Part shown: in pieces, positions 12,224 to 28,559 of the stretch
How the letters are laid out: each line of letters begins with the position of its first letter
Position numbering within the stretch: the first letter of the stretch is position 1
From: Antennarius striatus
Taxonomy: Eukaryota; Chordata; Actinopteri; Lophiiformes; Antennariidae
Length of the DNA: 64,000 bases
Assembly (NCBI RefSeq): GCF_040054535.1
Contig: NC_090792.1
Coordinates: forward strand, 1,845,001 to 1,909,000
Direction: 5' to 3'
The notes under the pieces: model-generated
The model's input: only the letters and a program-made list of their open reading frames with translations
Databases searched by the model: none
What the model was told of the DNA's origin: nothing
Program-made: the position numbers and the translations under genes

Positions 12224-12838
12224 CCAATTAGTTTCTGATTATTCAATTAATGCTGAATCATGAATGACATTTAGACACGAGGAGCTGATCAAATATTTCA
12301 TTCTCAACGTTAAAATTAGCAATGGAAAGAAGGTTGTTACGAAATCTTGCTTTCAGTCTTCAAATCCGGTCAGACCAGCAGACAGCTGGAGCAAAACAAA
12401 CCTGGACGTTTGAGCAGGTCCACCAAGTTACGTGATAAAGTGAATAAAGGTTCTGTACAGATAGAGGTTCTCCATCTCGAAACGTTTTCACTCATAGAAA
12501 TCCACACAGTGCAGCACCGATTAATTAAAGCTTTATTAGAATCCAATATTTTTGGTGTCAAACTCTCCACACCAACAACGCAGCAGTCAGGCCTTCCTGA
12601 CACGGAAGACTGGGAGAAGAACAGACAGACAGAAAACAGAAAATCTGACAAACATTAACATCCAAAAGACAACATTGAAAAAGACTCAAAACCACTGCAG
12701 CTGCTCAGGCTGGACAACGAAACATTCACCTGAACAAAATGGAATGAAGCTAATCATCAATAACGCAGAACTACTTTGAACCATTTGTCCAGCCTTAACT
12801 TTTGCATAGTCTGAAAAAAAAAAAAACACGGTAAACAT

Positions 12839-15366
12839 CTACTGCCCCTCCTCTTCCTCTTCCTCGTCAAACTCGCCCTCGTCGTCGGCGGTTGCGTCCT
12901 GGTACTGCTGGTACTCAGACACCAGGTCGTTCATGTTACTCTCAGCCTCTGTGAACTCCATCTCATCCATGCCCTCACCCGTGTACCTGAAACACAAACC
13001 GGATTTAGCCACATGCACTGAAACACGGGAACTTCAGCCGCTGCCCTGAACTCATTCATCCGTTACTCACCAATGGAGGAAGGCCTTGCGGCGGAACATG
13101 GCGGTAAACTGCTCGGAGATGCGCTTGAACAGCTCCTGAATGGCTGTGCTGTTGCCGATGAAGGTGGAAGACATCTTCAGGCCGCGAGGAGGAATGTCAC
13201 AGACGGCCGTCTTGACGTTGTTGGGGATCCACTCCACAAAGTAGCTGCTGTTCTTGTTCTGGACGTTCAGCATCTGCTCATCCACCTCCTTCATAGACAT
13301 GCGGCCTCTAAAGATCGCTGCAACGGTGAGATAGCGTCCGTGCCGCGGGTCACAAGCTGCCATCATGTTCTTTGCGTCAAACATCTGCTGGGTGAGTTCA
13401 GGAACTGTCAAAGCCCTTTAGAAAGACAGAATTCATTAACGACGCTCTCAAATGCACTAAATACAGAATTCTGGGCCTGACACACGTCCAAAAAGCCTCG
13501 TCTCTCCTCTCTACCTGTACTGCTGGCTGCCACGGCTCGTCAGAGGAGCAAAGCCCGGCATGAAAAAGTGCAGCCTGGGGAAAGGCACCATGTTGACAGC
13601 CAGTTTCCTCAAATCAGCATTGAGCTGGCCAGGGAAGCGCAGACAGGTGGTCACTCCACTCATGGTAGCAGAGACAAGGTGGTTCAGGTCACCGTAGGTG
13701 GGAGTGGTGAGCTTCAGTGTGCGGAAACAGATGTCATACAAGGCCTCATTATCAATGCAGTAGGTCTCATCTGTGTTCTCAACCAGCTGGTGGACAGACA
13801 GGGTGGCATTGTAAGGCTCCACCACCGTGTCAGACACCTGGAGGACAAAGAAAGGAGACGATGGGAGCAAAGGGAACAAGAAAACACAGCTAGCCAACTG
13901 CAGAAAGAATTTAACTCTAAATATCTTCATGCTTTATATTTACCTTAGGTGAAGGCACCACACTGAACGTGTTCATGATGCGGTCTGGATACTCCTCTCG
14001 GATCTTGCTGATGAGCAGCGTGCCCATGCCAGAACCGGTGCCTCCTCCGAGGGAGTGGGTGAGCTGGAAGCCCTGGAGGCAGTCGCAGCTCTCGGCCTCC
14101 TTCCTCACCACATCCAGGACCGAGTCCACCAGCTCAGCTCCCTCTGTGTAGTGGCCTTTAGCCCAGTTGTTACCTGCTCCGCTCTGGCCTGCGTTCCATG
14201 CAAATACAGCAATTAGAACCTACTGGATGGAAATCTCATGACCTCATCATACAGGCAGAGCCGTGTACAAATGATCATACGGAGCGATGCATGCATGCAC
14301 TCAAAGGGAGAAGTTCCTTTACTATTCCTTTACCATTTCACAAATATTCCCCTCTTACAATACAAGTGTGACTCCCGCTGATTCATTGCAGTGAAGTTGT
14401 CAAACTAAGTGAATTTAAACAACAATATTCTCGTTCAAATTCTCACCAAAAACAAAGTTGTCGGGTCTAAAGATTTGTCCAAAGGGCCCAGACCTCACAG
14501 AGTCCATTGTACCTGGCTCCAGGTCCACCAGCACAGCACGGGGGACATATTTCCCACCTGGAAACACATGAAACACAACCTGAATACTGCACGCATATTT
14601 ATATATATAATTGGAATACTTTAAATTCTTTCTTTTGAAATGTTGCGCAAACCACATATGAAAGCTCCACAAGGGTTTGAGCATATTTTAGTGATCTGAA
14701 TAAGAAAATGACATTTTGGAGATGTTTTTAGGTCTTAAAGCAGACAGAAGTTAACAAACTATTACTAACACCTGCTTCAGATAACTAACCCTATGTGTTA
14801 AAGCTGTTGCATCACGGAAACCAGGTGACAGAGCAGTGAGGGCCCATCACCTTCAGACTGGTTTCCAGGGTCTTCTAATAACCCCTGCAGGCCGGTTCTG
14901 GCCTCACAACAACTTACAGGAGCCATTGATCATCATCGATCCTTCAGACTCCACAACCTGAACCCTCGTCCGTCTTTCGCTCACCTGTCGCCTCGTTGTA
15001 GTACACATTGATGCGTTCCAGCTGCAGGTCGGAGTCTCCGTGGTACGTCCCGGTCGGGTCGATACCATGTTCGTCACTGATCACCTCCCAGAACTACGGG
15101 GGTAGAACAGACATCCATTGAACCAGACATCAGCTGGCCGACCAGCACGACTCGACTCTGCGCCGCACTGGAACCAGTCGGTGGCGTCCGGCTAACGAGG
15201 CTAGCGTTAGCTTACCAAGCTAATTTAGCCGCCCGCCCGCCCGCTCCACATTTACAGCTAACTCTATCAGCAAGTGACGTCTTCAACTCCACAAGAAAAA
15301 CCTCCTCACCTTCGCTCCGATCTGGTTGCCACACTGGCCCGCCTGCAGGTGAACGATTTCCCTCAT
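12839..15366 (-). CDS. tubb: Beta-tubulin, left copy (445 aa)
   Basis: Seven minus-strand exons: 15366-15310, 15093-14985, 14557-14447, 14188-13944, 13837-13515, 13415-13071 and 12986-12839, ending TAG. The protein has the N-terminal MREI autoregulation tetrapeptide, the GTP-binding GGGTGSGMG loop and the conserved core. The acidic tail ends [19 protein letters not shown]. It forms alpha/beta heterodimers in microtubules. The first three introns sit at the standard vertebrate positions (after codons 19, 56 and 93). Three more split what is normally one large last exon. The protein differs from the right copy only in the tail (DD here, EE there). About 300 bp of 3' UTR, with the proximal AATAAA, is missing relative to the right copy; the distal signal remains at 12532-12537 (TTTATT on plus). 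The isotype class was not assigned. Confidence 0.95.
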
Positions 15367-15473
15367 TTTGGTGGAAACTTCCCGACTTGAACGCAACAAG
15401 AGCCTGAGACGCTTCCTGAACACAACTCCAACGGTCTGACTCAGGCTGGCGCGAGCCTCGCTCTGACTCACTT

Positions 15474-15600
15474 CCAATCAAAGCCACTGGACACCGGAGG
15501 TGTCAATCAAACCTGAGGACACACCTGATTGGCTGGTAAACTTCTATCGGGTTTCTGATTGGATAGTCCAAAGTAGGTTCCGTTGCCTCGGCGACTTTGA
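15474..15600 (-). promoter_or_regulatory. CCAAT-box promoter of the left tubulin
   Basis: Inverted CCAAT boxes (ATTGG on the plus strand) lie at 15528-15532 and 15558-15562, about 165-195 bp upstream of the start codon. They match the two CCAAT boxes of the right copy in sequence and spacing. No TATA box is clear. Confidence 0.6.
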
Positions 15601-27229: not shown

Positions 27230-27564
27230 ATGTTTACCGTGGGTTTTTTTTTTTCAGACTATGCAAAAGTTAAGGCTGGACAAATGGTTCAAAGTAGTTC
27301 TGCGTTATTGATGATTAGCTTCATTGCATTGTGTTTCCATGATAATTCTGGGTAAATTCATCTGCATCCGGTAAATGTTTCGTTGTCCAGCCTGAGCGGC
27401 CGCAGTGGTTCTGTGTCTTTTGAATGTCTTCTCTTTTGGATGTTAATGTTTGTCAGATGTCCTCTTTTCTCTCTGCCTGTTCTTGTCCCAGTGTCTTCAT
27501 GTTCAGTCTCTTCAGTTTGTTTTCCAAGCTTCAGGTTAAAATGGGCTGCATGCTGTCAAATTAA

Positions 27565-27570
27565 AATAAA
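27565..27570 (+). terminator. Proximal poly(A) signal of the right tubulin
   Basis: AATAAA about 336 bp after the stop codon. The homologous segment is deleted in the left copy. A second AATAAA at 27860-27865 is shared by both copies. Confidence 0.65.
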
Positions 27571-28559
27571 GTTTTCTTATTACTGTAGAAACACTAGCCT
27601 CTCTGTTGGCCCATTAGCACTATAGGTGGAAGGAAACAATCACATTTTGATCTGGGAGTGCCCCAAGAAAATATGCTGTATTTGTGACAGAATGTAGCGC
27701 TGACCGGTTTAAGCACTGCTTGAGTTGTTTGATAAGTAAAACTAGATTTCATATCAAAGCTTTCAGAAACTAAAGCTCTGATCAGCACGAGACGTGTCAG
27801 GAAGGCCTGACTGCTGCGTTGTTGGTGTGGAGAGTTTGACACCAAAAATGTTGTGTTCTAATAAAGCTTTAATTAATTGGTGCTGCACTGTGTGGATTTC
27901 TCCGAGTTAAAACTGACATTAACATTTGAGATACAGAATCTATGTATCTATACAGAACCTTCATGCACCTTGTCATGTAACTTGTTGGACCTGCTCAAAC
28001 ATCCAGGTTTGTTATGTTTCAACTGTCTGCTGGAAACCGGATTTGAAGACCGAGAGCACGTTTTGTAACAACCTTCTTTCCATTGCTAATTCTAAAATAT
28101 TGAGGATGAAATATTTGATCAGTTCATGTTTAAATGTCATTCATGATTCAGCATCAATTGAAGAATCAGAAACTAATCGTGAAATTATGAAGAGAAAGTG
28201 ATCACCAACCAGAATGAAACCACTTTATTAAATGTCTACCCGTGTGTCATTCACAAAGGTCATGGGATAAAAGAAAATTCAGCGTCTGATAAGGACTTGA
28301 AGTTAAATCCAACTTTTTAAAATAACTTCTGTTCATCCTCCACACACTGAGTGTATTAATGGAAGACAGGTCAGGCTGCATGATGGGTGAAGACATCCAG
28401 ACACGCTGAGGCTTCGGAGCGGGTCCTCAAACCCACGATGGGGGCTTGTGTTGATGGCACAGCAGAGCAAATGAAACCAGCTTCGGTCCACGTGTGAACG
28501 ACTGATGGAAAGCTTCACGGGGCTTCAACTCGTCACCAGCTTCAGCTCCCAGAAGGCAC

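Follow-up and report, generated by a model that had tools for sequence, protein, structure and literature searches.

A recent ectopic gene conversion across an older inverted duplication is the best and the probable explanation for a pair of beta-tubulin genes analyzed here in one species. The window, i.e., the whole stretch of 64,000 nucleotides that was analyzed, contains both genes, transcribed divergently, copy A from the minus and copy B from the plus strand, and the position of all features is given in Table 1. Conversion as the agent, and its recency, are what we infer from a single abrupt change of identity along the two arms. The gene content of the window reads as that of a fish, and open reading frames recognized in the ORF list for its right part are presumably NRDE2, calmodulin, and a TTC7-like gene.

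Table 1. Features of the inverted pair and its surroundings (window positions unless otherwise stated).
Feature	Position	Strand	Remarks
Studied stretch	1.845-1.909 Mb of 21.2-Mb contig		genome of 548 Mb in 42 contigs
Coiled-coil copy A	9114..11098	-	ORF 9114-9953, upstream segment 10824-11098; split by insertion at ~10011-10823
Homologous 3' flank, arm A	12227..12735	-	61 differences/503 aligned sites
Transition zone, arm A	12743..12884	-	82 identical bases, then 6 changes/60 bp; mate 27184-27325
Beta-tubulin copy A	12839..15366	-	7 exons, intact, 445 aa; by exon joining and translation
Copy A exons	15366-15310, 15093-14985, 14557-14447, 14188-13944, 13837-13515, 13415-13071, 12986-12839	-	
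High-identity core, arm A	12885..15766	-	11 substitutions/2878 aligned sites; mate 24301-27183
Spacer between divergent copies	15767..24300	.	no homology seen across its two ends
Unit C (third, partial)	17996..21200	+	coiled-coil copy and some upstream flank
High-identity core, arm B	24301..27183	+	mate of arm A core
Beta-tubulin copy B	24701..27229	+	7 exons, intact, 445 aa; by translation, Pfam, and structure match
Copy B exons	24701-24757, 24974-25082, 25510-25620, 25875-26119, 26231-26553, 26653-26997, 27082-27229	+	
Homologous 3' flank, arm B	27333..28177	+	32-bp and ~300-bp stretches lacking in A
Coiled-coil copy B	31676..33672	+	33-bp repeat array at 32584-33352

Two inverted beta-tubulin genes and the step in their identity

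Judging from their translations, both copies are predicted to encode intact beta-tubulins with both expected domains, and both frames are open. The product of copy B matched Pfam Tubulin (PF00091) and Tubulin_C (PF03953), i.e., the GTPase and C-terminal domains, and solved beta-tubulin chains aligned to it over nearly its full length. The two products differ only in residues 431-432, where A has DD and B has EE. Six paralogues were found in the genome; across the body of the coding sequence, their best matches agree with copy B at 84-87%. At the same two residues, those on contigs C9 and C24 have EE, those on C18 and C3 are mixed, and those on C5 and C16 lack one residue there; EE is tentatively taken as the likely older state. 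As a separate observation, the pair has three introns (13838-13943, 13416-13514, and 12987-13070, with the same sites in B) that fall within the single last exon of the C5, C18, and C3 beta-tubulins of the same genome, and the first of them, after codon 174, is shared with the C9 paralogue and with L004, a contaminant contig of animal-like character.

The original prediction was that the arms match almost perfectly through promoter, exons, and introns, and this was borne out: positions 12743-15766 (-) and 24301-27325 (+) are ~99% identical, and BLAST aligned 12733-15766 with 27335-24301 at 99.1% over 3039 columns. The segment 12743-15766 and its mate are separated by 17 substitutions in 3020 aligned bases, plus one 5-bp and one 4-bp indel. 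These changes had been described as only scattered single ones, which does not hold for 6 of the 17 substitutions, packed into 60 bp (12825-12884). By class, differences amounted to 2/400 (0.5%) in the 5' flank and UTR, 8/1186 (0.7%) in introns, where both indels also lie, and 5/1338 (0.4%) in exons, with 4/103 in the part of the 3' flank included in the core. A genome search with the first 1000 bp of the core returned near-identical copies at two places, each within the window, and a further 12 matches at 73-85%; 11 of these are tubulin-coding-like loci on C3, C5, C9, C16, C18, and C24, and the twelfth, on C12, involves intron 1, a nearby tubulin-like stretch being weak.

Past the core on the 3' side, the sharp fall in identity and the indels that had been predicted were both observed, with 61 differences in 503 sites and gaps of 32 bp and ~300 bp. 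The difference count was 20/131 for arm A positions 12605-12735 and 41/372 for 12227-12604, and, indels apart, base-level colinearity runs from the core through the flank. Farther out, the arms were still colinear, with identities of 70% (11786-11982), 77% (11480-11747), and 93% (10824-11098), and 93% again in the coiled-coil exon. When 27336-28180 was used as the query, the genome matches were itself and arm A only; a transposon mimicking an old clock was thus rejected as the nature of the flank, although not absolutely, as the search skips very common words.

A single change point along the arm improved the fit by 89.7 log units over none, and the maximum gain in 200 shuffles was 7.4. The even identity that would speak against the original prediction was thus replaced by a step, which excludes a single even-aged duplication. 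The BIC was lowest for two segments (609.3, versus 772.3 for one, 615.5 for three, and 622.0 for four), and a second step within the core was unsupported (p 0.83, with a rise in BIC). The best breakpoint was 12884/12885, inside the last exon at the acidic tail, with 11/2878 differences on one side and 69/652 on the other; within one and the same duplication, a homogenized segment hence lies next to a diverged one. The boundary had been placed at about 12745/27326; the best breakpoint does not coincide with it, although 82 identical bases at 12743-12824 leave the earlier position possible, their chance at the flank rate being 2.5e-5 for a stretch picked post hoc. Between these bases and the breakpoint, the six clustered changes, among them those behind the EE/DD difference, extend from the last codons into the 3' UTR. 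Such clustering had a p of 1e-4 in 100,000 draws and of 0.03 when two changes beside a T-run were left out; the four remaining ones sit among Glu/Asp codons, where the sequence is purine-rich.

At the promoter end, a step of falling identity was absent, because homology simply ends at 15766/24301, with none detected beyond by BLAST with 7-base words. The arm pattern is, therefore, one step on the 3' side and one end of homology on the 5' side.

Proposed gene conversion and its alternatives

We propose that an older inverted duplication would have given rise to two divergent units, each with a beta-tubulin followed by a coiled-coil gene, and that these may have diverged by ~12-17% just 3' of the tubulin and by more in parts farther out. 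Recently, one tubulin unit would have overwritten the other by ectopic (interlocus) conversion, in one long tract or in several overlapping ones. On its 3' side, the tract would begin in the last exon or early in the 3' UTR; it would then cover all exons and introns and stop, together with the homology, ~400 bp ahead of the ATG. This promoter-side end could be the homology limit or a non-homologous end of copying. In agreement, neutral sites were homogenized too: the introns (8/1186) differed from the flank (61/503) with a Fisher p of ~4e-25, the promoter side (2/400) with a p of ~5e-14, and the tubulin coding sequences showed 3 synonymous differences when ~32 were expected at 11%, the flank itself being at 12%. 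A conversion limited to the tubulin unit, as originally suggested, is supported by the step, the intron identity, the occurrence of the flank in the two arms only, and the colinear register. We prefer ectopic conversion because core and flank keep their register across the stop codon and 3' UTR, as homology-directed copying leaves them, and this reading takes in one-ended long-tract copying that exhausted the upstream homology. Several observations count against it: the step is one-sided, homology stopping at 15766/24301 without a drop; the coiled-coil exon (18/570) is less diverged than the flank; and GC, often elevated by conversion, is not clearly raised in the introns, the raw values being 0.447 for introns, 0.443 for the window, 0.436 for the spacer, and 0.391 for the 3' flank. 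Moreover, ~2.9 kb is long for a single conversion tract.

The original prediction had offered two duplications of different age as the other option, and we consider this unlikely. Here, an early duplication of the coiled-coil gene and 3' flank would have been followed, recently and as a separate event, by gain of the 3-kb tubulin unit in one arm; the scheme also covers repair from one end, primed within the 3' flank common to both arms and joined upstream to unrelated DNA. It fits the sharp end of homology at 15766/24301, with unrelated DNA beyond, and the existence of tubulin-less units at this locus, since in unit C the coiled-coil gene and a portion of the flank were found without any match to tubulin. 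However, the core meets the old flank in register through the tail, stop codon, and 3' UTR, and an independent insertion would need homology-templated copying to land in this way; in its homology-primed form, the scheme comes close to long-tract conversion.

An assembly artefact, in which duplication or cross-polishing of one core produced the second, is more improbable still. Core divergence of ~0.4-0.6% is within the allelic range and would suit it, but both sides of each arm carry their own sequence, the locus is interior to a 21.2-Mb contig of a genome assembled in 42 contigs, and the copies are separated by 17 substitutions and two indels, with the cluster in the tail. Finally, a single duplication that diverged evenly, purifying selection keeping the core alike, has next to no likelihood and is refuted by the intron identity, since codon constraint on this strongly conserved protein, whose paralogues also resemble copy B, fails when introns (0.7%) and 5' flank (0.5%) are nearly as alike as exons (0.4%) and synonymous differences are about one tenth of those expected.

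Within the conversion reading, selection may have spared the isotype-defining acidic tail while promoter, body, and introns were homogenized, an idea we regard as doubtful. The EE/DD difference would then lie within a divergent 60-bp island with converted sequence on both sides, so that the isotypes might differ only in possible tail-modification sites. Alternatively, the tract ended at the island, or the purine-rich repeat mutated later; the latter is a plain alternative to selection because the four cluster changes lie within the purine-rich Glu/Asp stretch.

Coiled-coil genes, unit C, and the spacer

A coiled-coil gene adjoins each tubulin copy on its 3' side, and the exons of A and B are 93% alike over the full matched length, with 18 of 570 sites differing in the first 190 aligned codons. 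The adjacent coiled-coil copies had been thought much more diverged than the core; they are indeed more diverged than it (p 4e-8), yet less than the flank (p 2e-8). Pairwise comparison of the three local copies over 190 codons gave a dS of 0.05-0.09 and a dN of 0.03-0.05, values between core and flank. Either the coiled-coil gene was also exchanged, or the flank is fast-evolving and overstates the age; the arm is a mosaic with at least three divergence levels, and we refrain from assigning an absolute age. As a clock, the gene is weak because it is a member of a dispersed family: 29 matches were spread over eight contigs, the tubulin contig among them, some being short and weak and those off the contig being of lower identity. 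Two relatives were located close to the end of their contig (at 31 kb on C1 and at 24.95 of 25.0 Mb on C9), and this C9 copy scored almost the same as those on C6 and C7; perhaps this is a spreading subtelomeric family. The 33-bp tandem array of copy B has ~24 units within the open frame, and there are 2-3 in A and C.

Insertions at 10011-10823 and 29397-31675 each contain a copy of a single LINE-like element. The two copies agree at 96% over 579 bp, the longer has endonuclease and reverse transcriptase domains, and the first insertion is bordered by a short CAGGTCA repeat. Since the insertions occupy different points of the arms, both probably arrived after the duplication. The spacer segment 23300-24300 occurs once in the genome. 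Two segments of 455 bp, 6820-7274 and 22642-23096, lie in inverted orientation to each other at 98.2% identity; their edges are abrupt, no homology was seen around them, and they may represent a mobile element. A comparison of 7275-8730 with 21201-22641 for concealed homology scored inside the range of five shuffles, and such homology was rejected.

Relation to known systems and related tubulin sequences

The arms of primate Y palindromes are kept alike by conversion. The present pair resembles them in having near-identical inverted arms and differs in its short core, most of the arm not being homogenized.

Concerted evolution of gene pairs, tubulins included, has already been published (PMC2720389, PMC1533823), and this pair is probably a further case. 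The mammalian pairs TUBG1/2, DDX19A/B, and BMP8A/B evolve in concert and are likewise linked duplicates, with exon and intron blocks >97% identical and other segments diverged; the set also has a tubulin-family pair, and BMP8A/B is inverted (PMC2720389). Unlike those pairs, which are backed by cross-species comparison and raised GC, ours comes from one species with no clear GC rise, concerns beta-tubulin, and has arms only 8.5 kb apart (PMC2720389). Beta-tubulin paralogues of Leishmania are reported to have homogenized coding regions next to non-coding flanks that are not homogenized, as found here, and ectopic conversion was proposed; in contrast to those separate loci of a protist, this pair is inverted, and its introns and proximal promoter are homogenized too (PMC1533823). 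A search of titles and abstract openings in the open-licence literature found no case of beta-tubulin conversion in fish.

Collectively, this is a clean mosaic pair, in which the introns, promoter, and exons of one gene were apparently overwritten and the flank keeps an older clock. The two loci probably produce almost identical proteins and have the proximal promoter in common while differing in upstream sequence, and tubulin copies can thus remain interchangeable in protein yet diverge upstream. Ages of fish gene duplications would come out far too young if estimated from such genes. The pair is also a possible case of an isotype tail at, or escaping, the conversion edge, and, with 3-kb arms in inverted orientation on either side, the 8.5-kb spacer could undergo inversion through them.

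A genome contig scan for outgroup arms gave eight loci, all with MAG titles, and a viral contig scan gave none; the animal-like, intron-containing tubulin fragment on L004 was too distant to serve as an outgroup. Three other loci (L006 7665-8153, L007 6846-8135, and L008 815-1225) are ORFs on MAG contigs titled as different bacterial groups. Pfam gave no match for them and NCBIfam a single one below threshold, and no on-topic literature was found for such a bacterial tubulin-tail stretch. Their N-terminal parts are unlike tubulin and secreted-looking by eye, and each ends in 31-34 residues 97-100% identical to the beta-tubulin C-terminal segment (~396-432), after which an acidic tail and a stop follow. 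Mimicry of the tubulin tail or transfer are candidate readings, and these stretches merit attention.
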